Below are positions 11,075 to 58,983 of a stretch of 64,000 nt of DNA, piece after piece. Location of the stretch: contig JAOPYE010000014.1 in the NCBI GenBank assembly GCA_025964775.1, positions 1 to 64,000 on the forward strand, read 5' to 3'. The notes beneath the pieces are model-generated. The model had not been told where the DNA came from. It searched no databases and saw nothing but the letters and a program-made list of their open reading frames with translations. A program made the position numbers and the translations under genes. Origin of the DNA: Marmoricola sp. Lineage in GTDB: Bacteria; Actinomycetota; Actinomycetes; Propionibacteriales; Nocardioidaceae. Every line of letters starts with the position of its first letter. The first letter of the stretch is position 1.

Positions 11075-11196
11075 GACCAGGCTGTTGGGTCTGACTCCAC
11101 CGCCGAAGCGATGTCACAGTAGCGCGACTGTGCCGGATTCCCACCGGCTTCCTCGAGCCTGGTGCGCCCATCGTAGGGCCTCGGTGAACGGGTGCC
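11075..11196 (-). ncRNA. Cobalamin riboswitch upstream of cobT
   Basis: On the minus strand a conserved core reads GAAGCCGGTGGGAATCCGG, then GCACAGTCGCGCTACTGTGA (the B12-box region), a short hairpin, and GAGTCAGACCC. These are the invariant parts of the AdoCbl-binding riboswitch, spaced normally. It lies between the cobBC stop and the cobT ribosome binding site, with 50 bases of downstream sequence (ATCCAG...CTGGAT hairpin) that could be the expression platform. It should switch off cobTUD when cobalamin is plentiful. Confidence 0.9.
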
Positions 11197-13674
11197 TCAG
11201 GAGCCCGGTCGAAGGCTGGCCAGGGCGGACACGAGTGCGGCGGTCGGCTCGCGTTCACGTACGGCGATCCGCACCCAGCTCGCGTCCAGGCCCGGGAACG
11301 TGTCGGCCCGGCGGACCGCGAAACCCGCCTGCCGCAAGGCGTCATGCACTCCGGCGCCGGCTCGGGCGAGGACGAACGGAGCCGTCGAGGCGATGTGCTC
11401 GATGCCCAGCCGGGCCAGCTCGCCGCTCAGGTACTCACGGTCGCGCGCGATGCGCGCGACCCGTCGGCCGGCCTCCTCGTTCGCCTCCGCCGACGTGCAG
11501 GCGATCAGCGCGGCGAGCGCCGCTGCCGAGACCGACCACGGGGTCTGACGCCTGGCCAGTGCGGCGATGGTCTCGGCGTCGCCGGTCACGTACCCGGCCC
11601 GGATGCCCGGGATCGTCCACAGCTTCGTCAGGCTGCGGATCACCAGCAGGCCGGGCCTCACGATGCCGGCGAGCGACTCCTCGTCGTCCTCGAGGAAGGC
11701 CTCGTCGATGACGACCAGCCGGCCCGGTGCGAGCAGCCCGAGCAGGGTCGAGGCAGGGTGCCGGACGCCTGTCGGGTTGGTCGGGTTGCCGAGGACGACC
11801 AGGTCCGCCTCGGCCGGCACCAGCGAGGTGTCGAGCCGGAACCCGGTCGCAGCGGTCAGAGTGACGTGCCGCACCGGCTGGCCCTCGAGGGCCACGTCCG
11901 GCTCGGTGAACTGGGGGTGCACGACGACCGGACACGTCCAGGACCGCAGTCGTGCGACCAGGCCGAAAGCCTCGGCGGCCCCTGCCGTGGGCAGCACCGT
12001 GTCCGGGCTTCGGCCGTGACGGATGGCGATCGCGTCACGGGCCGGCGTCGCGTCGGGATAGCGGCCCGGATCGGCCGCGAGCAGGGCTGCCTCCAGCCAG
12101 GCGGGTCGCGGGCCGTCGTACACGTTCACGGCGAAGTCGGCCAGACCGGGCGTGGCCTCGGCGTCGCCGTGGTGGCGCAGGGGCTCGTGGGGCAGGTCTG
12201 GGGGGACGTCGCCGCATCTCGGCAGACTCACTTCGAGACGGGCGCTGCCCGCCTTCCTCGGTACAAGCGATGATCGCGGGACGCGGGGTGGGAGCGCGAC
12301 CGGCTCAGCAGCGTGAGCGGTTGCCGCGAACCGGGCGGCCAGCCGCGGGTGGCCGGCCCAGTGCGTGTGCAGGTAGGCCGCATGAAGGCTCGGGCCCGCG
12401 ACACCGTCGACGAGCCCGTCGCCGAAGCTCCAGGCGGGCCGCCCGGGTGAGGACAGCAGGTGGGTGCGGTGGAACTCGTGGCCGGTCACCACCTCGCCCG
12501 CGGTCGTGAGCAGGTTCTCGCCCGCCGCGGTGGCGGTCCGGTAGGCGAGGGTCAGCCGCGGTGCCATCGCGGCCTCGACCGGGACCGCGCCGACCATCTC
12601 GGCTCCGTCGACGGTGCGGCACAGGTAGAGCAGGCCGGCACACTCGGCGACCGTGGGCAGCCCGTTCGCGATCGCGGCCCTGACCTGGGTGCGCAGCGTG
12701 TCGTTGCCGCTCAGGTCGGCCGCGTGCAGCTCGGGGAAGCCGCCGCCGAGGTACAGGCCGCGGGTGCCGGCCGGAAGCGAGTCGTCGGTCGCCGGGTCGA
12801 AGACGACCGGATCGCAGCCGGCGGCACGGAGCAGCTCGGTGGTCTCGGCGTAGGAGAACGTGAACGCACGGCCGCCGGCCACGGCGATCACCGGGCGGTC
12901 GGTCCCTGCGAATGGTGCCGAGACGTGGTGACCCGACAGCGCGGCAGTCGGATCCCAGGGACTGCCGGCGAGGTCCGGAGCTGCCTGCGCCAGCCGGACC
13001 ACGGCCTCGAGGTCGATCCGCTCTGCGACCTGGGCGGCAAGCCGGTCGAGCGAGGCGGCGGCGTCGGTCCGCTCGGCCGCCGGCACGAGTCCGAGGTGGC
13101 GCGAGGGTGCCTCGATGCCGTCGTCGCGCCGCAGGACGCCGAGGACCGGGTACCTGTCGGCGAGTGCTCGCAGGACCTCGCCGGCGTGGCGGTCCGAACC
13201 GGCCTTGTTGAGCACCAGCCCGACGACGTCGACCGAGTCGTCCCAGGTCGTCATCCCGTGCACCGTCGCGGCGATCGAACGCGAGGCGTGCGAGATGTCG
13301 ACCACCAGGACGACCGGGGTCCGGGTGACCTGGGCGACGTGAGCGGTCGAGGAGAAGCCGTCGCCGCCGAGCTGGCCGTCGTACAGGCCCATGACGCCCT
13401 CGATGACGGCGACGTCGGCGCCCGAAGCGCCGCGCAGGAGCAGCGGCACCAGCAGCTCCTCGCCGACGAGGTGCGGATCCAGGTTGCGGCCCGGTCTGCC
13501 GGTGGCCAGGGCGTGGTAACCGGGGTCGATGTAGTCCGGCCCGACCTTGTGCCCGCTGATCGCCAGGCCCCTGCGAGCCAGTGCCGCCATCAATCCGGTC
13601 GCGACCGTGGTCTTGCCGTGTCCCGATGCGGGTGCGGCGATCATCAGGCGCGGCAGGGCTGTGGTGGTCACCAT
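11197..13674 (-). CDS. CobB-CobC fusion: cobyrinate a,c-diamide synthase plus PLP decarboxylase-like domain
   Basis: This is one uninterrupted 825-codon frame. Residues 1-455 are CobB: P-loop ASGHGKTT (16-23), the GxKVGPDYIDPGYH segment, and a C-terminal amidotransferase domain with Cys345 in AECAGLLYLC. CobB amidates side chains a and c. Residues about 490-825 are CobC/HisC-like, a PLP fold with Lys684 in RSLTKLW-IPGIRAGY. CobC makes the aminopropanol arm from L-threonine phosphate. In mycobacteria the two are separate genes. The linker (455-490) contains a copy of the dispersed palindrome. The ATG overlaps the cobO end, and a GTG one codon later also fits. Confidence 0.92.
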   Translation of the reverse strand: MVTTTALPRLMIAAPASGHGKTTVATGLMAALARRGLAISGHKVGPDYIDPGYHALATGRPGRNLDPHLVGEELLVPLLLRGASGADVAVIEGVMGLYDGQLGGDGFSSTAHVAQVTRTPVVLVVDISHASRSIAATVHGMTTWDDSVDVVGLVLNKAGSDRHAGEVLRALADRYPVLGVLRRDDGIEAPSRHLGLVPAAERTDAAASLDRLAAQVAERIDLEAVVRLAQAAPDLAGSPWDPTAALSGHHVSAPFAGTDRPVIAVAGGRAFTFSYAETTELLRAAGCDPVVFDPATDDSLPAGTRGLYLGGGFPELHAADLSGNDTLRTQVRAAIANGLPTVAECAGLLYLCRTVDGAEMVGAVPVEAAMAPRLTLAYRTATAAGENLLTTAGEVVTGHEFHRTHLLSSPGRPAWSFGDGLVDGVAGPSLHAAYLHTHWAGHPRLAARFAATAHAAEPVALPPRVPRSSLVPRKAGSARLEVSLPRCGDVPPDLPHEPLRHHGDAEATPGLADFAVNVYDGPRPAWLEAALLAADPGRYPDATPARDAIAIRHGRSPDTVLPTAGAAEAFGLVARLRSWTCPVVVHPQFTEPDVALEGQPVRHVTLTAATGFRLDTSLVPAEADLVVLGNPTNPTGVRHPASTLLGLLAPGRLVVIDEAFLEDDEESLAGIVRPGLLVIRSLTKLWTIPGIRAGYVTGDAETIAALARRQTPWSVSAAALAALIACTSAEANEEAGRRVARIARDREYLSGELARLGIEHIASTAPFVLARAGAGVHDALRQAGFAVRRADTFPGLDASWVRIAVREREPTAALVSALASLRPGS
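12231..12265 (+). repeat. Dispersed palindrome (family A) in the CobB-CobC linker
   Basis: CTTCGAGAC, then a self-complementary GGGC-GCT-GCCC core, then CTTCCTCGGTAC. This is a diverged copy of the family seen at 19242, 20759, 24914, 28653 and 58946. It encodes residues around 470-481, exactly between the two fused domains. Confidence 0.7.
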
Positions 13675-16312: not shown

Positions 16313-16351
16313 GGGGGCTCCCGCGCTTTAGCCATCGGACATCGGAGCGCG

Positions 16352-16498
16352 AGGCCGGTCTTCGGACTTCCGGAGTCGTCGTACGACGCCCCGGTCACCG
16401 CAGCGGGCCCTGTGCCGGACTCTCACCGGCTTCCCAGATTCTCCCCGTCCACACCGCGATGTTGCTGCGAGTCTCTGGGGCACCTCGTGCTTGGAGGC
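16352..16498 (-). ncRNA. Cobalamin riboswitch upstream of the chelatase-cobO-cobBC operon
   Basis: Minus-strand sequence shows GAGGTGCCCC at the 5' side, GGGAAGCCGGTGAGAGTCCGG, then GCACAGGGCCCGCTGCGGTGA (B12-box region), a perfect short hairpin containing CGTCGTACGACG, and the 3' element GAAGTCCGAAGACCGGCC. This is an orthodox AdoCbl riboswitch without inserted repeat. It ends about 40 bases before the ATG at 16312. The divergent cobL start lies just beyond its 5' end. Confidence 0.92.
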
Positions 16499-16519
16499 GT
16501 AACGATAACCTTTCCGCCC

Positions 16520-17740: not shown

Positions 17741-18513
17741 CGATCCACTTCGTCGGCGGAGGCCCGGGCGCTGCCGACCTGATCACGCTGCGCGCGGCGA
17801 CCCTGCTGGCGGGGGCCGATGTCGTCGTGTACGCCGGCACCTACCTGGACCGCGACGTGCTCGGTCACTGCCGCGAGGACGTCCGGCTGGTCGACACCCA
17901 GGACCTGGACCTGGACCAGATCACCGCCGAGCTGGTGACCAGCCACCTGGCCGGACGGAGCGTGGTGCGGCTGTGCTCGGGCGACCCGTCGCTGTACTCG
18001 GCGCTCGCCGAGCAGACCGCGCGGCTCGATGCCGCGGGCGTGGACTGGGACGTCACTCCGGGCGTACCGGCCTACGCGGCAGCGGCCGCGCTGCTCGGCC
18101 GAGAGCTCACCGTCCCGTTGCTGACCCAGTCAGTCGTGCTGACCCGCGCCCAGGCCCGGTCGACGGCACTGCCGGCAGGTGAATCGCTGGCCGCGTTCGC
18201 TGCGACCGGCGCGACCCTGGTCCTGCACCTCGCGATCACCCGGATCCGCGAGATCGCCGAGGAGCTGATCGACGACTACGGGCCGGAGTGCCCGGTCGCG
18301 GTGGTCCATCGGGCGAGCCAGCCGGCCGAGGTCGTCCTGCGTGGAACGCTGAGCACGATCGCCGACCAGGTCGAGGCCGCGGGCCTGCGCCAGGCGGCGG
18401 TGATCCTGGTCGGCCAGGTCCTCGACCCGGTGCCGAGTCCGGGCGAGGTCGCCGAGTCCTACCTGTACGACGCGAGTCGCGACCGCTCCTCGAAGCTCCG
18501 CTCAGCCGACTGA
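17737..18513 (+). CDS. cobM: Precorrin-4 C11-methyltransferase CobM
   Basis: This 258-residue SAM-dependent tetrapyrrole methylase makes precorrin-5. Motifs: FVGGGPGAADLITLRA at the N-terminus, VVYAGTYLD, LCSGDPSLYSA (SAM-binding loop) and VTPGVPAYAAAAA. The GTG start overlaps the cobL stop (GTGA), so cobL-cobM is an operon. Its 3' end overlaps the convergent cobIJ gene by 12 bases. Confidence 0.95.
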   Translation: MTIHFVGGGPGAADLITLRAATLLAGADVVVYAGTYLDRDVLGHCREDVRLVDTQDLDLDQITAELVTSHLAGRSVVRLCSGDPSLYSALAEQTARLDAAGVDWDVTPGVPAYAAAAALLGRELTVPLLTQSVVLTRAQARSTALPAGESLAAFAATGATLVLHLAITRIREIAEELIDDYGPECPVAVVHRASQPAEVVLRGTLSTIADQVEAAGLRQAAVILVGQVLDPVPSPGEVAESYLYDASRDRSSKLRSAD

Positions 18514-20028
18514 GCGGGCGGTCCACACCCTGCCGGACCTGGTGACGCGAGTCCCGCGGGCGCCGATGATCAGCAGGCACTTCATGTCGATGGTGTCGGC
18601 CTCCAGCTCGGCCAGCGTTGTCACGGTCAGGGACTCGCCGGCGCGACCGACGTCGCGACCGACGACCACCGGCGTGTCAGCCGAGCGCACCTCGAGCAGC
18701 AGCTTCTGGGCCTCGGCGACCTGGGTCGTACGCGACCGCGAGGCCGGGTTGTAGATCGCCAGGACCAGGTCGGCCTCGGCGATCGCGCGCAGGCGCGTCT
18801 CGATCACCGGCCATCCCTTGAGCCGGTCCGACAGGCTCATCACCGCGAAGTCGCCGCCGATCGGTGCCCCGGCCCGCGCGGCGACAGCCTGCACCGCGCT
18901 GATCCCCGGCACGACCCGGATCGGTACGTCGGCGTACGCCGGGTCCTCGGCCGCTTCGAAGACCGCAGCAGCCATCCCGAAGACGCCGGCGTCCCCGCCG
19001 GAGACGACCGCGACCCGCTCGCCGGCGAGCGCCAGGTCGAGCGCGAACCGGGCCCGGTCGACCTCGACGGTGTTGCCGGACGCGTGCCTGCTCAGCCCGA
19101 TCCGCTGGGGTACCCGGTCGACGTACGGGGCGTAGCCGACGACGTGGTCGACCTCGGCGAGCACGGCTGTGGCTTCGGGTGTCAGCCAGGCTTCGGGGCC
19201 CGGGCCGAGGCCGACGACGACGAGCTCAGCGGCGGTGCCAGGGTTTCGAGACAGGCGCTGCGCGCCTTCCTCAACCACCGAAACAGCACGCCGTCCGCCC
19301 GGGGTGTCGGCGACCGAGTCGCCGGGCACCACGATCAGGGAGAAGTACGGCACCGTCTCGGGGTCGACGTCGCGCACCGGGAGCCAGCGCTGCTCGGGCA
19401 TCGAGGCACGTTCGACGTACATGGCGTGGTCGAGCCGCCCGGCCTGCTCCAGGGCCGAGCGCACCCGGGGAAACGTGCGTCCGAGCTTCATGATGATCGC
19501 GCCCTGGGTGTCGGCCAGGCGCCGGGCGAGCTCGGCCTCGGGCAGCGTGCCGGGCAGGATCGTCAGCACGTCGGTCTGCCGGACCAGCGGCGTCGCGACG
19601 CTTGCCGTGGCGGCCGCGAACGACGGCACGCCCGGAACGATCTCGGTGGGGAAGCGGCCGCTCAGCCGGTCGTGCATGTACATGAACGAGCCGTAGAAAA
19701 GCGGGTCACCCTCGGCCAGCAGGACGACGGTTCGTCCGGCTTCGAGGTGGACGGCGAGCCGCTCGGAGCTCGCTTCGTAGAACTCGGCCATCGCGCCGGC
19801 GTACCCGCCCGGGTGGTCCGGCAGGCCCGTGGTCACGGGGTAGACGAGGTTCTCCTCGATCAGGCCGTGCGGGATGAGGTCGGCAGCGATCCGGCGGGCG
19901 TTCGACTCCTTGCCGACGCCCGAGTGGTAGGCGATCACGTCTGCCGCGCCGATCAACCGGGCTGCCTTGAGCGTGGTCAGTTCGGGATCGCCGGGACCCA
20001 CCCCGACGCCGTACAGGCGCCCGGTCAC
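18502..20028 (-). CDS. cobIJ: CobI-CobJ bifunctional precorrin-2 C20 / precorrin-3B C17 methyltransferase
   Basis: This 508-residue fusion has CobI in residues 1-235 (YGVGVGPGDPELTTLKA start, LAEGDPLFYGSFMY, VPGVPSF). CobJ occupies about 262-508 (VVGLGPG start, VVSGGDAGVFGMA, VPGISAVQAVAARAGAP, IYNPASRSR). CobI methylates C20; CobJ methylates C17 with ring contraction. Such fusions occur in mycobacteria. The linker residues 250-263 (VVEEGAQRLSRNPG) are encoded by a copy of the dispersed palindrome. The GTG start overlaps the cobH stop by four bases. Confidence 0.95.
   Translation of the reverse strand: MTGRLYGVGVGPGDPELTTLKAARLIGAADVIAYHSGVGKESNARRIAADLIPHGLIEENLVYPVTTGLPDHPGGYAGAMAEFYEASSERLAVHLEAGRTVVLLAEGDPLFYGSFMYMHDRLSGRFPTEIVPGVPSFAAATASVATPLVRQTDVLTILPGTLPEAELARRLADTQGAIIMKLGRTFPRVRSALEQAGRLDHAMYVERASMPEQRWLPVRDVDPETVPYFSLIVVPGDSVADTPGGRRAVSVVEEGAQRLSRNPGTAAELVVVGLGPGPEAWLTPEATAVLAEVDHVVGYAPYVDRVPQRIGLSRHASGNTVEVDRARFALDLALAGERVAVVSGGDAGVFGMAAAVFEAAEDPAYADVPIRVVPGISAVQAVAARAGAPIGGDFAVMSLSDRLKGWPVIETRLRAIAEADLVLAIYNPASRSRTTQVAEAQKLLLEVRSADTPVVVGRDVGRAGESLTVTTLAELEADTIDMKCLLIIGARGTRVTRSGRVWTARSVG
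19242..19279 (+). repeat. Dispersed palindrome (family A) in the CobI-CobJ linker
   Basis: GGTTTCGAGACAGGCGC-TGC-GCGCC-TTCCTCAACCACC: flanks GGTTTCGAGAC and TCCTCAACCACC around a GGCGC/GCGCC hairpin. It is the best-preserved coding copy, and its minus-strand reading is in frame with both flanking enzyme domains. Confidence 0.85.
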
Positions 20029-20693
20029 TCCCGCTCCTGGGCGAGGGCGTTCAGTGCGGAGGCAGCGATCGCCGAGCCACCGCGACGACCACGCACCGTC
20101 AGGAACGGGAGGTCGATGCCGTGCTCGACGGCGAACGAGGCCAGCGCGTCCTTGGACTCTGCGGCGCCGATGAAGCCGACCGGGACACCGATGATCGCGG
20201 CCGGACGTGGCGCCCCTGCCAGGATCATCTCGAGCAGGTGGAACAGCGCGGTGGGTGCGTTGCCGATCGCGATGACGGACCCGGCGAGCCGGTCGCCCCA
20301 GAGCGCGAGCGCGGCTGCCGATCGGGTGGTGCCGAAGTCGCGGGCGATGTCGGGCACGCGGGGGTCGCGCAGCAGGCACAGCACGTCGTTCCCGCGCGGC
20401 AGACGAGCCCGGGTCACACCGGAGGCGACCATGTGGGCGTCGGTGAGGATCGGCGCCCCGGCGTTCAGGGCGGCGCGCGCGGCAGGGACCAGGTCGTCGT
20501 GGATCAGCAGGTCGGCAGCCAGGTCCGTCTGGCCGCTGCCGTGCACCATCCGTACGGCGACCCGTTCGGCGTTCGCGGGAAGGTGCGCCAGATCGGTCTC
20601 GCGGCGAATGGTCGCGAACGATGCGCGGTAGATCGCGGCGCCGTCGTCGACGTAGTCGTAGCGCCGTGGCGGCCGTGCACTGATCAGGTCCAT
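20025..20693 (-). CDS. cobH: Precorrin-8X methylmutase CobH
   Basis: This 222-residue enzyme moves the C11 methyl to C12, giving hydrogenobyrinate. The catalytic histidine is His51 in VRMVHGSGQTD. GAPILTDAHMVASGV, AIGNAPTALFHLLE and GVPVGFIGAAESK follow, all family signatures. The start ATG at 20693 has GAGGAGAG upstream; a longer frame runs through the riboswitch and its repeat and is rejected. cobH-cobIJ is a two-gene unit under the riboswitch. Confidence 0.95.
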   Translation of the reverse strand: MDLISARPPRRYDYVDDGAAIYRASFATIRRETDLAHLPANAERVAVRMVHGSGQTDLAADLLIHDDLVPAARAALNAGAPILTDAHMVASGVTRARLPRGNDVLCLLRDPRVPDIARDFGTTRSAAALALWGDRLAGSVIAIGNAPTALFHLLEMILAGAPRPAAIIGVPVGFIGAAESKDALASFAVEHGIDLPFLTVRGRRGGSAIAASALNALAQERE

Positions 20694-20740
20694 CGTCTCT
20701 CCTCGGGGTTCTCGCCCCTCTCGGTGACAACGACGGGTGG

Positions 20741-20872
20741 CCAGTGTCTGGCTGGGCCGGTGTCGAGACGCAAGCTGTGCAAGCTCCTCAACCACCAATG
20801 GGCCTCACAGTGGCGGAACCGCCCCGGACTCGCACCGGGTTCCTGTTCCACTCGTCGAGGCCGTCAGCCTAG
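20741..20872 (-). ncRNA. Cobalamin riboswitch upstream of cobH, with inserted palindrome
   Basis: Minus strand: GTGGAACAGGAACCCGGTGC, GAGTCCGGGGCGGTTCCGCC, ACTGTGA (B12-box region), then a 38-base family A repeat, then AGCCAGACACTGGCC at the 3' side. Core elements are intact. The repeat replaces the variable peripheral stem between ACTGTGA and the 3' CAGACACTGGCC element. The cobG stop codon lies in its 5' edge. Confidence 0.9.
20759..20796 (+). repeat. Dispersed palindrome (family A) inside the cobH riboswitch
   Basis: GGTGTCGAGACGCAAGC-TGT-GCAAGC-TCCTCAACCACC. The flanks match the family. The inner GCAAGC...GCTTGC-type arms differ from the GGCGC copies, so the stem is conserved in form rather than sequence. 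Its nearest relative is the copy in the cobN riboswitch (24914-24950). Confidence 0.88.
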
Positions 20873-21730
20873 GTGACCACCATCGGCCACGACGAGCCCG
20901 CTCCAGGGTGAGACGACGAGCAGGTCCCCGGGCGTCACCTCGGCCAGCGCGGCCAGCACCTCAGCGGTGATCACGCCGTCGGGGACCTCGAGGTGCTGGC
21001 CACCGTCGAACGGGCCGAACGGCAGCGGGCCGGCGTTGCGCAAGGTCCGGGGATCGCGGGTCCCGCTGAGCATCGGGGTGCTCAGCTCGTCGACGTGCCA
21101 GGCCGCGTTCGGGCCCTCGCCGCGGCGCGTCAGGAAGTCGTGGGCTAGGGCCACCAGCCGTGCCGGTACGTCGTCGAGCGGGACGACGTCGCCCCAGCCC
21201 TCGCTCCCGGCGCGCAGCTGGGCGTGCTGTTCGCCGACCGCCATCGCGCCGAGGTCGAGGGTGCGGCCCTGGAGGTCACCGCGGCCGTCGTCGAGCACGA
21301 CCAGGAACCGTCCGGGGAGGGCGGCCAGAGCCGGCGCGGCACACAGCAGGTCGTCGAACGCGCGCGCGACCGGCCGAAGGTCGGCGAGCCCTCCGCTGAG
21401 ACCGGAGAGCGGCGAGCGCATCACGTTGCGCACCAGCTCGTGGTCGGCGTGCGGGAGCAGGCCGGTGGCCGCGATCGCGTCGGTGACCTCGGCGGGCAGC
21501 GCACCGTCGGTGAGCGGCAGGCCCCGGAGCTGGAGGTTCGCCCGGCCTGTCGTGTGGAGGTGGCCGTCGCCGAACCGCGTGGCCATCTGCGACAGCGCCA
21601 CGAGCTGGTGGTGAGCGATCTCGCCGCCGATCAGCCGGAGCCGGACCAGTGCTCCGTCCTCGGCCGGCCACGGCCGGGACACGCCCGGGCAGAGGTCGCC
21701 GCGGGTGCGGGGGGCCGGAGACGGGTTCAC
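20864..21730 (-). CDS. cobG: CobG-like precorrin-3B synthase, C-terminally truncated
   Basis: This 288-residue protein of the sulfite/nitrite reductase superfamily has an N-terminal ferredoxin-like half-domain (about 15-75, TGRANLQLRGLP), the segment RNVMRSPLSGLSGGLADLRP, and a second ferredoxin-like half-domain (about 225-280) ending at VVSPWSGLVVADGG. The [4Fe-4S]/siroheme half that normally follows is absent. Only isolated cysteines remain (DLCPG and LLCAA), with no CxnC pairs. The gene stops where the cobH riboswitch begins, leaving no room for the missing part. It may be a decaying gene or a cofactor-free variant. GTG start, 16 bases after the membrane-protein gene upstream. Confidence 0.85.
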   Translation of the reverse strand: MNPSPAPRTRGDLCPGVSRPWPAEDGALVRLRLIGGEIAHHQLVALSQMATRFGDGHLHTTGRANLQLRGLPLTDGALPAEVTDAIAATGLLPHADHELVRNVMRSPLSGLSGGLADLRPVARAFDDLLCAAPALAALPGRFLVVLDDGRGDLQGRTLDLGAMAVGEQHAQLRAGSEGWGDVVPLDDVPARLVALAHDFLTRRGEGPNAAWHVDELSTPMLSGTRDPRTLRNAGPLPFGPFDGGQHLEVPDGVITAEVLAALAEVTPGDLLVVSPWSGLVVADGGHLG

Positions 21731-21746
21731 CCCGACATTGTGCCGG

Positions 21747-24128
21747 TCAGTACCCGTAGCCGTGGATCGCCAGGATCAGGCTGATCACGAGCACACCGGC
21801 GCCCGCGAACTGGAGCTCCCACGAGGTGGCCGGCCGCGGGTGCTCCTCGTCGCGGAAGGTCTGCAGCGAGCCGAGGACCGCGGGGGCCAGGCCGGCGGCC
21901 ACGAACGCGATGCGCAGGACGGTCAGGTGACTGGAGCTGCCCGAGATCGCGATGGCGACCAGCACCGTTCCACCGATGACCAGCGCCAGGATCTGGGTGA
22001 TGCCGGTCGGGAACGGCACCTTCGCCGGAAGGGTGAAGCCGGTGCGGTAGCGCACCTGTCCCATCAGGTCAGGCAGGGCGAAGAGCAGGACGCCGGCGTA
22101 CCACTGCCAGCAACCGCCGATCAGGACGTGGCCGAGGAAGGCGAACACGGCGACCCGTACGGCGATCCCGGCGATCTCGGCGCTCAGCGCGGGCTCCGGC
22201 ATCTCCTCGGGGACCGACGTGTGCCGCAGCCGCTCGGGGTACCAGAGGTCGGCCAGGTGCTCGAGCAGCACCCGTAGTCCGATCGCGAACCCGGCGATCA
22301 CGCCGATCGTGCCCGCGTGCGCGGGGATTCCGGTGGCCTGGCCGGCGAAGCCGTCCATCGCTGCCGCGATCGCGCGCGCCACCCAGCCGCAGATCACGGC
22401 GGTGATGAGGACGTCGCCGAGCCGGTCCCAGCCGTAGCGCAGGTCCAGGTCCCCCGAACGGCGCAGCGGCCGGATCAGCGTCGCGATCAGCGGGAGCCCG
22501 GTCCACAGGAAGCCGACCAGCAGGATCACGGCGGCGCCGTGCGACGTCAGGTGTCCGGCGACGAGCAGCCCGAAGAACAGCGAGGCCATGAAACCGGCGA
22601 CGGCATCGAACGCCGCCACGAACACGATCAGGGCCAGCAGGCCGGACGTCGGCGGGAGTGCGTGGCCATGGGTCTGGTGGGCGGCGGTGATGCCGAGGGC
22701 GACGCCACCGATCGGCATCAGCCACCACAGCGAGCCGAAGATCGCGCGGATCACGGTGCCGTCGATCGCGAGCCGACCGAAGAACGGCGACCAGCGGGCG
22801 ATGTACGGCGGTGCGGTCCGGCTCCAGAAGTCCGTGGCGTCGTGCCCGAAGGCTTCCCAGCTCGGCGAGTGGTCACCGCGACCGACGCGCTCGATCAGCG
22901 CACCGTTGATCTCTCCGGCCGGCTCGACGCTGTCGCTGAAGGCCGCCGAGGAACCCACCAGGAACCGCGACAGCGGACGCGGACGTGCGACCGAGACGAC
23001 TGCCAGGGCGAGGACGAGCAGCACCAGCAGGTTGCTCAGGCCGTTCGAGCCGAGCCCGCCGCTTGCGTGCCCCGGCCTGGGCGTCGGGTGCTGGACCGGG
23101 GTCGGTGTGGCGCTCGGCGTCGGGGTCGCCGTCGGGGTGGGCGTCGGGGTCCCCACTGCCGGCGCTGCCTTGACGCTCAGCGTGGACGAGGAGGTTCCCG
23201 AGATCTTGTCCGGGTGTGCCAGGTCGATCGCCCGCGCGACGATCCGGTGCTGGCCCACGGCGAGCGCCGTCGGCAGGGTGCACGACCAGGACGTGCCGCT
23301 GGTGGTGCAGGAGGTCGTCGGGTGGGCCCAGTCCAAGTTCTTCGGCGGGTCGACGAGCAGCTGGATCCGCTGCCCGGAGCCGCTCGCCGTACCCGTGATC
23401 CTGACCGGTTGCTGGCCGACCTTGACGCTGGCCGGACCGCTGATCGAGGGTGCTCCGGGAGCGGCGATCCCCAGCACCTGGACGCTGGCCGACCCGGAGC
23501 GCGATGTCCCGGATCCGGACTCGGACACCCTGATCGAGTACGTGCCGGGCACGCCTGCCGACGAGCTCAGCGCACAGGTGAACGTGCTGCCGGAGGTGCT
23601 GCAGGGCGTCCCGCTCTGGCCGAGGACCACGCTGCCGCCGGTCGTGACCGTCGCCTGGACGTGGAAGTCGTTCAGACCGCTGATGTGGTCGTAGCTTCCG
23701 CTGACCGTGAACGGCTGACCCGCCTGCACGGAGCCGCTCGACCCGCGGACGCCGAAGTTGCTCGACACCGAGGCGGACGCGGAGGAGGAGCGGGTCTGGC
23801 CGCCGCCGCTGGCCCGCGCGCTGACCGTGACGGACCCCGGGCTCAGGTACCGGCCGCTGCCCAGGCTGCACCGCCAGGGGCCGAGGCCGTTGATCGCGCC
23901 TGCGGGTCGGCACGACAGCGAGCCGCTCGCGCCCGGGTTGGAGATCGAGGCGGACAGCGTGCTGTGATCGAGGTTGTTGAAGATGACCAGCGAGAACGGG
24001 TGCGGCTGTCCCGAGTAGCTCGTGGAGGACAGGAAGATCGCCGGGCTCTGCGTCGCCGCCGAGGCGGTGGTCGGCACGCCGATCACCACTGCCGCGGCGA
24101 GGAGGAGTCCCGCGAGCGTCCGGTTCAT
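21747..24128 (-). CDS. Large secreted-domain plus polytopic membrane protein (unrecognised)
   Basis: This 793-residue protein has a Sec signal peptide (1-25, ending TASAA) followed by about 320 residues of Ser/Thr/Gly-rich Ig-like beta domains with paired cysteines. A proline-threonine linker (repeats of TPTPT/ATPTP, near 330-360), a transmembrane helix near 375, and a C-terminal region of some 9-10 hydrophobic helices complete it. I recognise no family. It lies between cobN and cobG, immediately upstream of cobG in the same direction, so it may be co-transcribed with cobalamin genes; a role in metal or corrinoid traffic is only a guess. The start is the ATG with AAAGGGA upstream. Confidence 0.8.
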   Translation of the reverse strand: MNRTLAGLLLAAAVVIGVPTTASAATQSPAIFLSSTSYSGQPHPFSLVIFNNLDHSTLSASISNPGASGSLSCRPAGAINGLGPWRCSLGSGRYLSPGSVTVSARASGGGQTRSSSASASVSSNFGVRGSSGSVQAGQPFTVSGSYDHISGLNDFHVQATVTTGGSVVLGQSGTPCSTSGSTFTCALSSSAGVPGTYSIRVSESGSGTSRSGSASVQVLGIAAPGAPSISGPASVKVGQQPVRITGTASGSGQRIQLLVDPPKNLDWAHPTTSCTTSGTSWSCTLPTALAVGQHRIVARAIDLAHPDKISGTSSSTLSVKAAPAVGTPTPTPTATPTPSATPTPVQHPTPRPGHASGGLGSNGLSNLLVLLVLALAVVSVARPRPLSRFLVGSSAAFSDSVEPAGEINGALIERVGRGDHSPSWEAFGHDATDFWSRTAPPYIARWSPFFGRLAIDGTVIRAIFGSLWWLMPIGGVALGITAAHQTHGHALPPTSGLLALIVFVAAFDAVAGFMASLFFGLLVAGHLTSHGAAVILLVGFLWTGLPLIATLIRPLRRSGDLDLRYGWDRLGDVLITAVICGWVARAIAAAMDGFAGQATGIPAHAGTIGVIAGFAIGLRVLLEHLADLWYPERLRHTSVPEEMPEPALSAEIAGIAVRVAVFAFLGHVLIGGCWQWYAGVLLFALPDLMGQVRYRTGFTLPAKVPFPTGITQILALVIGGTVLVAIAISGSSSHLTVLRIAFVAAGLAPAVLGSLQTFRDEEHPRPATSWELQFAGAGVLVISLILAIHGYGY

Positions 24129-24264
24129 CTGATCCCTTTGCGGTCGAGAAGTCATGGGTGCAGGACGATCTTCGCGCGTCCGAAGGCCCTACCGTCCCAT
24201 TTCCGCGCTTGCCGTGGTGCGTAATTGGCGCGAGCTGTCGGCGATGATCACCTGCATGCGCGCG

Positions 24265-24825
24265 ATGAGTGAGCTGGAATGGCCGAAGCAGACCGAACGA
24301 CTGAGGCTGCGCCCGACCGTCGAGGCCGACCTGGACGCCCTGTGGGCGATTCGGCGGCAGGAGTCCGTCGGCCGCTGGATGACCGAGTCGTCGCAGGACC
24401 GCGACGCGTTCCACGCCCGGCTGATGGTGCCCGACCACCTGGCCAAGACGATCACCCTCGAGCTCGAGGGACGGATCATCGGCGACCTGATGATCGCGGT
24501 CGAGGACGCCTGGTCCCAGGGCGAGGTGCGCGATCAGGCCCGGGGCGTCCAGGCCGAGCTGGGGTGGTGCCTGGACCCCGCGGTCGAAGGTCACGGCTAC
24601 GGCACCGAAGCAGCCACCGAGCTCATCCGGATCTGCTTCGCCGAGCTGGGTCTGCGCAGGGTGACCGCGGCGTGCTTCGCCGACAACGAACCCTCGTGGC
24701 GGTTGATGGAGAGGATCGGGATGCGGCGCGAGGCGCACAACGTCGCGGACTCGCTGCACCGCGACGGTCGGTGGCTGGACGGGTTCGTCTACGCCGTGTT
24801 GCACGACGAGTGGCCGGCGTCGTAG
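24265..24825 (+). CDS. GNAT N-acetyltransferase (RimJ/RimL type)
   Basis: This 186-residue GNAT has ERLRLRPTVEADLDAL at the N-terminus, the acetyl-CoA loop region PAVEGHGYGTEAATELI (Q/RxxGxG/A variant GHGYGT), and the C-terminal ACFADNEPSWRLMERIGMR, typical of enzymes acetylating N-termini or small amines. The substrate is unknown. Upstream in-frame ATG codons at 24244 and 24256 are possible; the chosen one begins the conserved domain. It stands alone before the cobN riboswitch. Confidence 0.82.
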   Translation: MSELEWPKQTERLRLRPTVEADLDALWAIRRQESVGRWMTESSQDRDAFHARLMVPDHLAKTITLELEGRIIGDLMIAVEDAWSQGEVRDQARGVQAELGWCLDPAVEGHGYGTEAATELIRICFAELGLRRVTAACFADNEPSWRLMERIGMRREAHNVADSLHRDGRWLDGFVYAVLHDEWPAS

Positions 24826-24839
24826 CGGTAGCCCGGCTG

Positions 24840-24971
24840 TACTCTGGGCGCTCACGTCCTGTGGAACAGGAACCCGGTGCAAGCCCGGGGCGGTTCCGCC
24901 ACTGTGAAGCCTCGGTGCTGAGGAGCTTGCGCTGCAAGCGTCTCGACACCCGGCTCAGCCAGACACTGGCC
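24840..24971 (+). ncRNA. Cobalamin riboswitch and promoter upstream of cobN
   Basis: A TACTCT hexamer (24840-24845) is a plausible -10 box. Then come GTGGAACAGGAACCCGGTGC, AAGCCCGGGGCGGTTCCGCC and ACTGTGA, a 37-base family A palindrome, and the closing AGCCAGACACTGGCC. The core is nearly identical to that of the cobH riboswitch, so the two are recent duplicates or co-evolved. About 50 bases later comes the cobN ATG with AGGAGG. Confidence 0.92.
24914..24950 (-). repeat. Dispersed palindrome (family A) inside the cobN riboswitch
   Basis: GGTGCTGAGGAGCTTGC-GCT-GCAAGCGTCTCGACACC on the plus strand: the GCTTGC/GCAAGC stem is exact. It occupies the same structural position, with the same orientation relative to the RNA, as the copy in the cobH riboswitch. 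Confidence 0.88.
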
Positions 24972-25018
24972 ACGGGACGACCTACGACGAGGGGCGAGAA
25001 CCCTTCAGGAGGCTCTCG

Positions 25019-28000
25019 ATGGCGCGTATCGCGTTGCTGTCCACGTCCGACACCGACCTGCTGAGTGCGCGTGCGTCGGGCGCCGACTACCTGCTCGCCA
25101 ATCCGGCGCGGCTCGGCGTCGAGGACCTGGGATCCTTGCTGGCCGGGGCTGACCTGGTGATCGTCCGGCTCCTCGGTACGCCGCGCTCGTGGCAGGACGG
25201 CTTCGACGTCGTGCTGGGCAGCGAGCTCCCGGTGATCGTGCTGGGTGGTGAGCAGACCCCGGATGCCTCGCTGATGGAGCTCTCCACCGTGCCGGTCGGG
25301 ACCGCCGCGCAGGCGCACGCGTACCTGGCCCAGGGCGGCCGGGCGAACCTGGAGAACCTGCATGGGTTCTGCTCCGACACGGTCCTGCTGACCGGGACCG
25401 GCTTCGAGCCACCGGCGGTGGTGCCGTTGTGGGGCTGGAGCGAGCGCCCGGGTCTCGGCGTCTCGGCAAGCTCGACGACCGGCGACCGACTCCGCATCGG
25501 CGTGCTCTTCTACCGTGCCCACGAGACCAGCGGGAACGCCGGTTTCGCACACGCTTTGGCCGATGCGATCGACGCCGGCGGCGACGCGGTCGGGCTGCCG
25601 ATCTTCTCGGCGAGCCTGCGCTCGGCGCCCGATGACCTGTACGACGCCCTCGGCACCCTCGACGCACTGGTCGTGACCGTCCTCGCCGCCGGCGGCAGCG
25701 CGCCGGGGACCGCGAGCGCCGGCGGTGACGACGAAGGCTGGGACGTCGCCCGGATCGCTGCGCTCGACATCCCCGTCCTGCAAGGGCTCTGCCTGACGTC
25801 GAGCCGTGAGGACTGGGCGGCCGGCGATGAGGGCGTCACCCCGCTGGATTCGGCGAACCAGATCGCGATCCCGGAATTCGACGGGCGGATCATCACGGTG
25901 CCGTTCTCGTTCAAGGAGACCGATGCCGACGGCCTGCCGCGCTACGTCGCCGACGCCGAGAGGGCTGCGCGGGTCGCCGGCATCGCCGTCGGGCACGCGC
26001 GGCTGCGTCGGCTGGCCCCGGCGGAGCGGAAGATCGCGCTGATGCTCTCGGCGTACCCGACCAAGCACAGCCGGGTCGGCAACGCGGTCGGGCTGGACAC
26101 CCCGGTCTCGGCGATCCGGCTGCTGCGTCGGTTGCGCGACGCCGGCTACGACCTCGGTGAACCCGGCGGCGAGATCACCCGCTTCCTCGATCTCGACGAC
26201 GACACCGAGGCAGGCAACGGGCTGATCCACGCGCTCATCGCTGCGGGCGGCCAGGACGAGGAATGGCTAACCACCGCGCAGCTGAGCGACTCCCACGTCC
26301 GGATCAGCGCCGCCGACTACCAACGCTGGACTGCCGAGCTGCCCGAGGACCTGCGCGCCGGGATCGTCGCGGCCTGGGGGCCGGCGCCGGGAACGCTGTT
26401 CACCAACGAGGCGGGCGAGATCGTGCTGGCGACGCTGCGGGCGGGCAACATCGTCCTGCTGATCCAGCCGCCGCGCGGGTTCGGCGAGAACCCGGTCGCG
26501 ATCTACCACGACCCCGACCTCGCGCCGAGCCACCACTACCTGGCGGCGTACCGCTGGGTCGGCGCGGCCGCGGGTGACGGTGGCTTCGGTGCCCACGCCG
26601 TCGTCCACCTCGGGAAGCACGGCTCGATGGAGTGGTTGCCCGGCAAGAACGCGGCGCTGTCCGGGTCGTGTGCGACCGACGCCGCGATCGCGAACCTGCC
26701 GCTGATCTATCCGTTCCTGGTCAACGACCCGGGCGAAGGTGCCCAGGCCAAGCGTCGGGCGCACGCCACGATCGTCGACCACCTGGTGCCGCCGATGGCG
26801 CGGGCCGAGTCGTACGGCGACATCGCCCGCCTCGAGCAGCTGCTCGACGAGTACGGGAACATCGCGGCGATGGATCCGGCCAAGCTGCCGGCCATGCGCG
26901 CGCAGATCTGGACGCTGATGCAGGCCGCCCAGATGCACCAGGACCTCGGCCTGGAGGAGCGCCCGGGCGACGACGACTTCGACGACTTCATCCTGCACGT
27001 CGACGGCTGGCTGTGCGAGGTCAAGGACGCCCAGATCCGCGACGGCCTGCACGTCCTGGGCCAGGCACCCGTCGGCGAGGCCCGGGTCAACCTGGTGCTG
27101 GCGATCCTGCGGGCCACCCAGATCTGGGGCGGCGAGCACGGCGCCGTACCGGGGTTGCGAGCGGCCCTGGGTCTCAAGGACGGCGAGGCGTCGACGGCGG
27201 TCGACGCGATCGAGGCCCGGGCCCGGGACCTGGTGCAGCGCCTCGAGGACGCCGACTGGGACGCCTCGGCCGTCGGCGGACTCCACGACGACCCCGTCGT
27301 ACGGCAGGTGCTCACCTTCGCCGCGACCGAGGTCGTGCCCCGTCTGGCCCGGACCACCGACGAGCTCGACGCCGTCCTGCATGCGCTCGAGGGCGGCTTC
27401 GTGCCGGCAGGCCCCAGTGGCTCACCGCTGCGCGGGCTGGTCAACGTGCTGCCGACCGGACGCAACTTCTACACGGTCGATCCGAAGGCCGTGCCGTCAC
27501 GGCTGGCCTGGGAGACCGGCGTCGCGATGGCGGACTCGTTGCTGGCCCGGCACCTCTCCGAGACCGGCACCTACCCGCTCTCGGTCGGGTTGTCGGCCTG
27601 GGGCACCAGCGCGATGCGCACCAGCGGTGACGACGTCGCGGAGGTTCTCGCCCTGATCGGCGTCCGGCCGACCTGGGACGAGGCGTCGCGTCGGGTCAAC
27701 GGTCTGGAGGTCATCGACCTCGCCGAGCTCGGACGCCCGCGCATCGATGTGACCCTGCGTATCTCGGGCTTCTTCCGGGACGCGTTCCCGCACGTCGTGG
27801 CGATGCTCGACGACGCGATCCAGCTCGTCGCCGAGCTCGACGAGCCGGACGAGCAGAACTACGTCGGTGCCCACGCGCGGGCCGACCTGGCCGTGCACGG
27901 CGACCAGCGCCGCGCCACCACCCGGATCTTCGGGTCACGTCCGGGTACCTACGGCGCGGGCATCCTCCAGGTCATCGAGGCCGGCAACTGGCGTGACGAC

Positions 28001-28651
28001 CAGGACCTCGCCGAGGTCTACACCCAGTGGGGTGGGTACGCGTACGGCCGTGACCTGGACGGCGTCAGCGCGGCCGACGACCTGCGCACCAACTACCGAC
28101 GGATCGCGGTGGCCGCGAAGAACATCGACACCGCCGAGCACGACATCGCGGACTCCGACGACTACTTCCAGTTCCACGGCGGCATGGTCGCCACGATCCG
28201 GGCGCTGACCGGGAAGGCGCCGCGCGCGTACGTCGGCGACTCCACCTCCCCGGATGCGGTGCGGACCCGCTCGCTGGCCGAGGAGACCGCCCGTGTCTTC
28301 CGTGCCCGGGTGGTCAACCCGCGCTGGATCGCCGCGATGCAGCGGCACGGGTACAAGGGCGCGTTCGAGCTGGCGGCGACCGTCGACTACCTCTACGGCT
28401 TCGACGCCACCGCCGGCGTGGTGCACGACTGGATGTACGACACCCTCGCCCAGGAGTACGTGCTCGACGAAACGAACCAGGAGTTCATGCGACAGGCCAA
28501 CCCGTGGGCGCTGCGCGGGATCGTCGAGCGGCTGCACGAGGCTGCCGATCGCGGGCTGTGGGCCGAGCCCGATCCGGACGTCCTTGCTGCGATGAATGCC
28601 GTCTACCTGGACTTCGAGGGCGACCTGGAGGACCGCCACTCCGATGGGTGA
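25019..28651 (+). CDS. cobN: Cobaltochelatase subunit CobN
   Basis: This 1210-residue CobN/BchH-type large chelatase subunit inserts Co(II) into hydrogenobyrinate a,c-diamide with ATP. Landmarks: LLSAYPTKHSRVGNAVGLDTP in the middle, VHLGKHGSMEWLPGK near residue 530, LPTGRNFYTVDPKAVPS near 810, and RVTLRISGFFRDAFPH near 910. Length fits. Its ATPase partner is probably the ChlI-ChlD fusion at 14.3-16.3 kb. It is under a riboswitch and has a good AGGAGG. A 21-base repeat shared with the chelatase gene lies in frame near residues 148-154. Confidence 0.96.
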   Translation: MARIALLSTSDTDLLSARASGADYLLANPARLGVEDLGSLLAGADLVIVRLLGTPRSWQDGFDVVLGSELPVIVLGGEQTPDASLMELSTVPVGTAAQAHAYLAQGGRANLENLHGFCSDTVLLTGTGFEPPAVVPLWGWSERPGLGVSASSTTGDRLRIGVLFYRAHETSGNAGFAHALADAIDAGGDAVGLPIFSASLRSAPDDLYDALGTLDALVVTVLAAGGSAPGTASAGGDDEGWDVARIAALDIPVLQGLCLTSSREDWAAGDEGVTPLDSANQIAIPEFDGRIITVPFSFKETDADGLPRYVADAERAARVAGIAVGHARLRRLAPAERKIALMLSAYPTKHSRVGNAVGLDTPVSAIRLLRRLRDAGYDLGEPGGEITRFLDLDDDTEAGNGLIHALIAAGGQDEEWLTTAQLSDSHVRISAADYQRWTAELPEDLRAGIVAAWGPAPGTLFTNEAGEIVLATLRAGNIVLLIQPPRGFGENPVAIYHDPDLAPSHHYLAAYRWVGAAAGDGGFGAHAVVHLGKHGSMEWLPGKNAALSGSCATDAAIANLPLIYPFLVNDPGEGAQAKRRAHATIVDHLVPPMARAESYGDIARLEQLLDEYGNIAAMDPAKLPAMRAQIWTLMQAAQMHQDLGLEERPGDDDFDDFILHVDGWLCEVKDAQIRDGLHVLGQAPVGEARVNLVLAILRATQIWGGEHGAVPGLRAALGLKDGEASTAVDAIEARARDLVQRLEDADWDASAVGGLHDDPVVRQVLTFAATEVVPRLARTTDELDAVLHALEGGFVPAGPSGSPLRGLVNVLPTGRNFYTVDPKAVPSRLAWETGVAMADSLLARHLSETGTYPLSVGLSAWGTSAMRTSGDDVAEVLALIGVRPTWDEASRRVNGLEVIDLAELGRPRIDVTLRISGFFRDAFPHVVAMLDDAIQLVAELDEPDEQNYVGAHARADLAVHGDQRRATTRIFGSRPGTYGAGILQVIEAGNWRDDQDLAEVYTQWGGYAYGRDLDGVSAADDLRTNYRRIAVAAKNIDTAEHDIADSDDYFQFHGGMVATIRALTGKAPRAYVGDSTSPDAVRTRSLAEETARVFRARVVNPRWIAAMQRHGYKGAFELAATVDYLYGFDATAGVVHDWMYDTLAQEYVLDETNQEFMRQANPWALRGIVERLHEAADRGLWAEPDPDVLAAMNAVYLDFEGDLEDRHSDG
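25460..25480 (+). repeat. 21-base repeat (family B) in cobN
   Basis: This is an exact match to 15134-15154 in the chelatase linker and is read in the same frame (VSASSTT). In CobN it precedes a new beta-strand segment (DRLRIGVLFYRAH), again between structural blocks. Confidence 0.85.
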
Positions 28652-29444
28652 GCTCTTCGAGACGGTTGCTGCGCAACCTCCTCAGGACAAGCGTCGCGTC
28701 CGGGTCATCGGCATCGGCACCGGCGACCCGGGCCAGCTGAGCGGCGAGGCGATCGCGGCGCTCACCTCGGTGGCGTACGTGATCGCCGCCGACAAGGGCG
28801 GGGGCGATCCGTTGCTCGACGTACGACGTCGCCTGTGCGAGCGGTACGGCGTCGACCTGGTCGCCGTACGGGATCCCGAGCGGGACCGGGACGACCCGGC
28901 CGACTACCCCGGAGTGGTCCGTGACTGGCACGCCGCCCGGGTCGATGCCTACGCCGACGTGCTCGCCGAGTGTCCCGGCGATGCGGCCTTCCTGGTCTGG
29001 GGTGATCCGGCGTTCTACGACTCGACCTTGCGCGTCGTCGAGGACCTGGCCGCGCGCCTGCGACTGGCCTGCGACGTCATCCCGGGGATCTCGGCTCCGC
29101 AGCTACTGGCAGCCCGGCACCGGATCGTGCTGCACGGGATCGGCCAGCCGATCCTGGTCACCACCGGGCGCAGACTCGCGGACGCGGTGATCGCCGGACA
29201 CGACAACATCGTCGTGATGCTCGACGGCACGCTCGCCTGCTTGGAGCTCGACCCCGACGGCTGGCAGATCTGGTGGGGAGCGAACCTGGGGTCAGACGAC
29301 GAGGTGCTGGTTGCCGGTCGGCTGGCCGACGTGGCGGACGACCTGCTCCGGGCTCGCGAGGCCGTGAAAGCCCGCGCGGGCTGGGTGATGGACACCTACC
29401 TCCTGCGGCGCGTTGAGGCGCGACAGGTACCTTCGGGGGCGTGA
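28644..29444 (+). CDS. cobF: Precorrin-6A synthase (deacetylating) CobF
   Basis: This 266-residue SAM-dependent C1-methyltransferase removes the extruded acetyl group to give precorrin-6A. It marks the aerobic pathway. The domain starts RVRVIGIGTGDPGQL; AADKGGGDPLLD, LVWGDPAFYDSTLR and IPGISAPQLLAARH follow. The first 16 residues (LFETVAAQPPQDK) are not CobF sequence: they are encoded by a family A palindrome overlapping the cobN end. The ATG overlaps the cobN stop by eight bases; a GTG after the repeat is conceivable. Confidence 0.94.
   Translation: MGELFETVAAQPPQDKRRVRVIGIGTGDPGQLSGEAIAALTSVAYVIAADKGGGDPLLDVRRRLCERYGVDLVAVRDPERDRDDPADYPGVVRDWHAARVDAYADVLAECPGDAAFLVWGDPAFYDSTLRVVEDLAARLRLACDVIPGISAPQLLAARHRIVLHGIGQPILVTTGRRLADAVIAGHDNIVVMLDGTLACLELDPDGWQIWWGANLGSDDEVLVAGRLADVADDLLRAREAVKARAGWVMDTYLLRRVEARQVPSGA
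28653..28690 (+). repeat. Dispersed palindrome (family A) at the cobF N-terminus
   Basis: CTCTTCGAGACGGTTGC-TGC-GCAACC-TCCTCAGGACAA: a GGTTGC/GCAACC stem inside the family flanks. It lies immediately after the cobN stop and forms the first codons of cobF. Confidence 0.8.
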
Positions 29445-58945: not shown

Positions 58946-58983
58946 GGTTTCGAGACAGGCCGTGCCTGCCCTCCTCGACCACC
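58946..58983 (+). repeat. Dispersed palindrome (family A), intergenic copy
   Basis: GGTTTCGAGACAGGC-CGT-GCCTGCC-CTCCTCGACCACC: same flanks as the other copies, with a GGCA/TGCC-type stem. It lies between the convergent TetR and permease genes, where it may serve as a terminator. It is the only well-preserved copy outside the cobalamin locus. Confidence 0.88.

Follow-up and report, generated by a model that had tools for sequence, protein, structure and literature searches.

Two of the four B12 riboswitches in the window, the 64-kb stretch of DNA analysed here, carry as their P6 extension a copy of a palindrome that is dispersed through the genome (family A). The distribution of this stem among relatives fits a lineage-specific capture rather than an ancestral riboswitch part. 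We consider it probable that the palindrome, which is amplified in both the window genome (G000) and the sister genome (G004), was captured into P6 in the ancestor of the two, was copied between the cobN and cobH riboswitches, and serves there as a largely neutral stem.

Rfam assigns three of the four riboswitches to RF00174 and one to RF01482 (Table 1). The two RNAs of interest had been correctly located in the preliminary description: both exceed the RF00174 gathering cut-off of 31.5 bits and, as is expected of this class, both precede B12 genes, cobH and cobN. The two are inverted relative to each other and separated by about 4 kb. Their cores are indeed nearly identical (94% over 51 nt), and the palindrome segments agree at 88% over 32 nt. 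The other two riboswitches of the window have ordinary hairpins at the P6 place, as had been stated.

Table 1. Riboswitches, P6 extensions, family A copies and cob genes in the 64-kb window
Feature	Position	Strand	Evidence
Cobalamin riboswitch upstream of cobH	20722..20896	-	RF00174, 52.4 bits, E 3.5e-10
P6 extension, cobH riboswitch, 51 nt between CTGTGA and AGCCAG	20754..20804	-	Sequence; single hairpin, -23.1 kcal/mol, z -2.45 (last base omitted)
Family A palindrome, cobH riboswitch: GGTGGTTGAGGA-stem-GTCTCGACACC, two U-U mismatches in inner stem	20759..20796	-	nhmmer E 0.002
Cobalamin riboswitch upstream of cobN	24823..24988	+	RF00174, 44.6 bits, E 5.9e-8
P6 extension, cobN riboswitch, 49 nt	24908..24956	+	Sequence; single hairpin, -26.5 kcal/mol, z -3.15 (last base omitted)
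Family A palindrome, cobN riboswitch: GGTGCTGAGGA-GCTTGC-GCT-GCAAGC-GTCTCGACACC	24914..24950	+	nhmmer E 5e-6
Third cobalamin riboswitch, ordinary P6 hairpin	16336..16502	-	RF00174, 69 bits
Fourth B12 riboswitch, ordinary hairpin, upstream of cobT	11076..11163	-	RF01482, 50.4 bits (cut-off 50)
cobH (precorrin-8X methylmutase), downstream of riboswitch	20028..20693	-	PF02570 CbiC, E 2.4e-68
cobI-cobJ fused methyltransferases, behind cobH	18502..20025	-	NCBIfam CobI and CobJ models; two PF00590 stretches
cobG-like gene upstream of cobH riboswitch	20864..21730	-	TIGR02435, 135.7 bits, below cut-off 234.8
cobN (cobaltochelatase subunit), downstream of riboswitch	25019..28651	+	TIGR02257, 1070.5 bits
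Family A copy inside cobIJ reading frame (CobI-CobJ linker)	19240..19281	-	Pattern; translation
Family A copy directly after cobN	28657..28684	-	Pattern
Family A copy, CGAGGA variant	12233..12260	-	Pattern
Family A copy, CGAGGA variant	58950..58977	-	Pattern

The segment between ACTGTGA and AGCCAGACAC reads GGCCCATTGGTGGTTGAGGAGCTTGCACAGCTTGCGTCTCGACACCGGCCC in the cobH riboswitch and AGCCTCGGTGCTGAGGAGCTTGCGCTGCAAGCGTCTCGACACCCGGCTC in the cobN riboswitch. That it is a family A repeat in both was borne out by an nhmmer search of 102 riboswitch stretches: the profile, for which 34 non-riboswitch copies were used, matched both segments (Table 1). The two copies have the same orientation relative to the RNA, as had been noted, with the arms GGTG..TGAGGA and GTCTCGACACC. 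However, two details of the earlier reading apply to one copy only or need correction. The GCTTGC/GCAAGC stem is present in cobN, whereas the inner arms in cobH are GCTTGC and GCTTGC, resulting in two U-U mismatches; and the 5' flank, thought to be shared, is GGTGGTTGAGGA in cobH but GGTGCTGAGGA in cobN. In the predicted fold P6 is followed by one hairpin, and not by the P8-P12 extension on P6 that characterises Class I B12 riboswitches according to an excerpt of PMC11260477. These RNAs resemble other RF00174 riboswitches with a short P6 extension in their core, B12 box and position before cob genes, but differ from them in having a dispersed palindrome of the genome as this extension.

Family A has the properties of a REP-like element, a short imperfect palindrome in many copies: the pattern TGAGGAN{6,34}GTCTCGA has 101 matches in the window genome compared to 2 for the reversed pattern, although the true copy number is somewhat below 101 because some of the listed matches are not palindromic. 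The consensus, drawn by eye from 30 copies, is YCGGTGGTTGAGGA-stem-GTCTCGAAACC. When the pattern GAGGAN{14,18}GTCTCGA was scanned over 148 relatives, most had few matches; the counts were 172 in G002, 108 in G000, 60 in G004, 59 in G003, 46 in G001, 42 in G006 and 37 in G011, and, in other genera, 185 in G079, 87 in G088 and 76 in G064. The Y1/RAYT transposase domain (PF01797) was found in 0 of the 24 genus genomes and in 5 of 14 control genomes, so that family A is described here as REP-like rather than as a REP of the RAYT type.

Several other observations were made along the way. Some copies in the window genome (e.g., L220) are divergent doublets, CCTCAACCACCGGTGGTTGAGG, which we take to be comparable to REPIN or BIME units. 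The copy within cobIJ is read in frame as SVVEEGAQRLSRNP between the CobI and CobJ domains; at the same place the G018 linker is GGTTGAGCCTGTCGAAACC, a palindrome of another family, and G004 and G016 have other linkers. An Rfam scan of 20 of 30 loci around family A copies in G000 yielded no Rfam match overlapping a locus's own copy; the distance between one copy (L030) and a neighbouring tRNA is about 50 nt. The 75% complete genome of G001 has 86 exact matches to GGTYTCGACAGGCTCRACCACC, with 0 to 10 in the other 23 genus genomes.

The P6 site was compared across the 102 RF00174 matches in the 24 genus genomes, 28 of which fall below the family cut-off (RF00174 only). At E < 0.01 the family profile matched four of these stretches, the G000 cobH, G000 cobN, G004 cobN and G018 cobH riboswitches, all of them with the palindrome on the RNA strand. 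The G004 cobH copy, which is 12 nt shorter and reshaped, was not significant in this search (E 3.5). Among these matches, family A proper is seen only in the cobN and cobH riboswitches of G000 and G004. The palindrome in the G018 cobH riboswitch belongs to a related subfamily of the type GTTGAGGTGC...GCCTCGAAA, which accounts for 10 of 14 copies in G018, the riboswitch copy included, compared to 2 of 70 in G000, as counted with one strict pattern. In 15 other genus genomes the P6 extension of the cobN riboswitch is formed by other hairpins, of 13 to 63 nt, and G016 and G007 likewise have other hairpins in their cobH riboswitches. This range fits the variability of peripheral elements, including truncated P6 extensions, described for B12 riboswitches in excerpts of PMC11260477 and PMC10907184.

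These results support the proposal that a dispersed genomic palindrome has become a stem of a regulatory RNA, since the stem was seen only in genomes carrying the family, orthologous riboswitches have other hairpins, and G018 carries its own related subfamily. If instead the palindrome were an ancestral part of the riboswitch from which the dispersed family was derived, its presence in both riboswitches of two species would be accounted for, but the other hairpins found in cobN riboswitches (15 genomes) and in cobH riboswitches (G016 and G007) would not. Moreover, there are genomes with many family copies and no riboswitch copy, such as G002, where none of the 172 pattern matches lies in its five riboswitch matches. 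The same stem in distant riboswitches lacking the family, which the preliminary description had named as the outcome that would speak against capture, was absent by exact patterns from the 148 relatives and from 84,980 species, such scans missing decayed copies and other subfamilies. The 84,980-species scan returned five matches, of which a single one, from the sister genome, is a riboswitch; the other four were considered and discarded, since Rfam does not recognise them as riboswitches at its cut-off. An ancestral origin is accordingly highly improbable.

Capture appears to be rare: in five other genomes rich in copies, 0 of 18 B12 riboswitches matched the family profile. The profile also had 7 matches at E < 0.01 in flanking DNA totalling 283,855 bases, and we therefore claim no preference of the palindrome for riboswitches. 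Pattern matches in G001, G002 and on contig C8 of G004, considered as further captures, turned out to be family A copies behind CTGTGA at apparent gene ends. A scan for TCGA in P6 over 341 genomes of the taxonomic family found 20 places, of which 19 were judged by eye to be ordinary hairpins; its gap limits let it catch only one of the five known copies (G004 cobH, with G000 cobN missed by one base), and it provides no evidence of absence. The sample as a whole comprises few independent capture events and includes incomplete assemblies.

The cobG-cobH junction was inspected in seven genomes. A riboswitch precedes cobH in G000, G004, G016, G018 and G007, and the inverted cobH/cobN pair is found in these five genomes; G008 and G015 have no riboswitch there, cobG and cobH being too close for one. 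In a cobH-cobIJ tree of the seven genomes, the branch separating the five riboswitch bearers from G008 and G015 has support of 99/99; this tree is compatible with either one capture or separate captures for G018 and G000/G004. A cobN tree of 17 genomes places G016 as sister to G000 and G004 with G018 outside (84/80), and its topology favours separate captures in the two lineages.

Within a genome, the two P6 extensions tend to match. G000 and G004 have family A in both riboswitches, G016 has CACCCCTGGG...GGGGGTGG arms in both, and the two riboswitches of G007 (C8:1080028-1080135 and 1084239-1084361) share an identical P6 hairpin, GCCCGCGAGGGC, while their outer stems differ. The G007 case suggests that concerted evolution of riboswitch pairs may not require a palindrome. 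In line with copying, both G018 riboswitches read AGTCAG. When all pairings of cobH with cobN riboswitches were ranked for sets of four genomes, the true pairing came first among 24 in both sets, whether P6 was scored by itself or together with the core, 1 of 24 being the best rank attainable with four lineages. Scored on the core without P6, it came second of 24 in both sets, with another pairing summing slightly higher; conversion is thus not supported for the core. G018 is an exception, in that P6 differs between its two riboswitches and its cobH P6 scores closer to the cobN P6 of G000 and G004 (0.40 and 0.45) than to its own cobN P6 (0.32). The flank variants are also swapped: GGTGCTGAGGA is found in G000 cobN and G004 cobH, and GGTGGTTGAGGA in G000 cobH and G004 cobN, for which copying is a simpler explanation than repeated change. 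Judging from the within-genome sharing of P6 and the swapped flanks, the riboswitch pair seems to predate the palindrome, whose second copy was most likely acquired from the partner riboswitch.

This bears on the choice, left undecided in the preliminary description, between acceptance of a mobile or amplified palindrome and duplication of a riboswitch that already contained it. Capture of a dispersed palindrome fits the distribution, but separate insertions into the two riboswitches are less likely than one capture followed by copying, because the inverted pair exists in five genomes and its P6 extensions tend to match within a genome. Two independent family A insertions would be in keeping with the amplification of the family in the window genome, with the non-identical flanks of the two copies, and with G018, which suggests that separate capture in this stem is possible. 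However, both copies have the AGCTTGC arm, for which one further near match is listed in G000 (AGCTTGT/GCAAGC at C53:49403), and both have the TCTCGAC change; the swapped flanks, and the matching P6 extensions of the G007 and G016 pairs, also argue against separate events. We regard two insertions as unlikely.

All five captured P6 segments (the G000 and G004 pairs and G018 cobH) fold as single hairpins, with shuffle z-scores of -2.45 to -4.45. In 29 of 30 genomic copies, the RNA of the strand used in the riboswitches folds better than that of the opposite strand, the mean difference being 3.6 kcal/mol; the better-folding strand is the one found in all five riboswitch copies. With two or so independent events, this strand choice is suggestive only. 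The four copies in G000 and G004 read TCTCGAC where the family mostly has TCTCGAA, and the riboswitch arm lowered the fold energy relative to the usual arm by 2.9, 3.1 and 5.4 kcal/mol in three tested copies, the last figure being that of G004 cobN with two changed bases. Among the listed G000 matches with a base other than A at this position, 5 of 14 have C, namely the two riboswitch copies and three that are not family-like by eye; in G004 it is 8 of 18, several of them family-like and outside riboswitches.

It could also be supposed that the insert is a decaying parasite that damaged the riboswitches, as the U-U mismatches in G000 cobH and the shortening and reshaping of G004 cobH might suggest. 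But these leaders retain an intact core and B12 box, as well as the GGCGAGAACC segment a short distance ahead of the ribosome-binding site, and even the shortened G004 cobH copy is a clean hairpin (z -3.22). Damage of this kind is, in our estimation, quite unlikely.

Returning to capture followed by copying, the sequences show that the cobH and cobN RNAs are B12 riboswitches with an intact core, and that their P6 extension is an outer hairpin free to vary in sequence and length from one relative to another. We propose the following: in the ancestor of G000 and G004, to judge from the distribution, a copy of the REP-like palindrome would have been captured into this hairpin to become a stem arm, in the orientation whose RNA folds better; the palindrome would then have spread between the inverted cobN and cobH riboswitches by gene conversion; and it would have been retained as a largely neutral structural filler, a side arm probably not touching the ligand. 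The RNA is probably still a translational B12 off-switch. By analogy with known B12 riboswitches, the GGCGAGAACC segment could pair with GGTTCC of L5 as a kissing loop, hiding the ribosome site when B12 is bound.

A broader reading, which we advance only tentatively, is that the P6 extension of B12 riboswitches in the genus may be a recurrent docking place for dispersed palindromes of the host, which are then shared by gene conversion between paired riboswitches, the repeats supplying new folded RNA parts. The cases considered under this heading are family A in G000 and G004, the GTGC subfamily in G018, and GGTCTCGACAGGCTCGACCACC in G014. The last is a different dispersed palindrome, with 7 copies in that genome including the one contained in the ribonucleotide-reductase B12 riboswitch (L062, G014:C1:2612616-2612855).

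Among known systems, family A is presumably closest to REP/REPIN elements, being a short imperfect palindrome with about a hundred copies, some of them divergent doublets; it differs in that no Y1 transposase was found in the 24 genus genomes and in that a reading frame contains one of the window copies. Rickettsia palindromic elements also insert into RNA genes. Those described in an excerpt of the review PMC10969869 are palindromes tolerated inside genes, as here, but are about 150 bp long and lie in protein genes. The same excerpt considers it conceivable that MITE-derived elements form riboswitches; in our case, however, the repeat forms no new riboswitch but a side arm within one of a known class. 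In the open-access literature, covered by titles and abstract openings with subscription journals outside its scope, no dispersed palindrome inside a riboswitch aptamer was reported, nor does the excerpt of PMC2267715 contain anything on one.

Riboswitches vary greatly in their peripheral stems, and the source of the stem sequences is rarely seen. Here, a likely donor family can be examined alongside alternative states of the site and the probable copying from one riboswitch to another. Two questions thereby become testable: whether structured RNAs acquire new stems from repetitive palindromes, and whether exchanging a stem alters ligand choice or switching.
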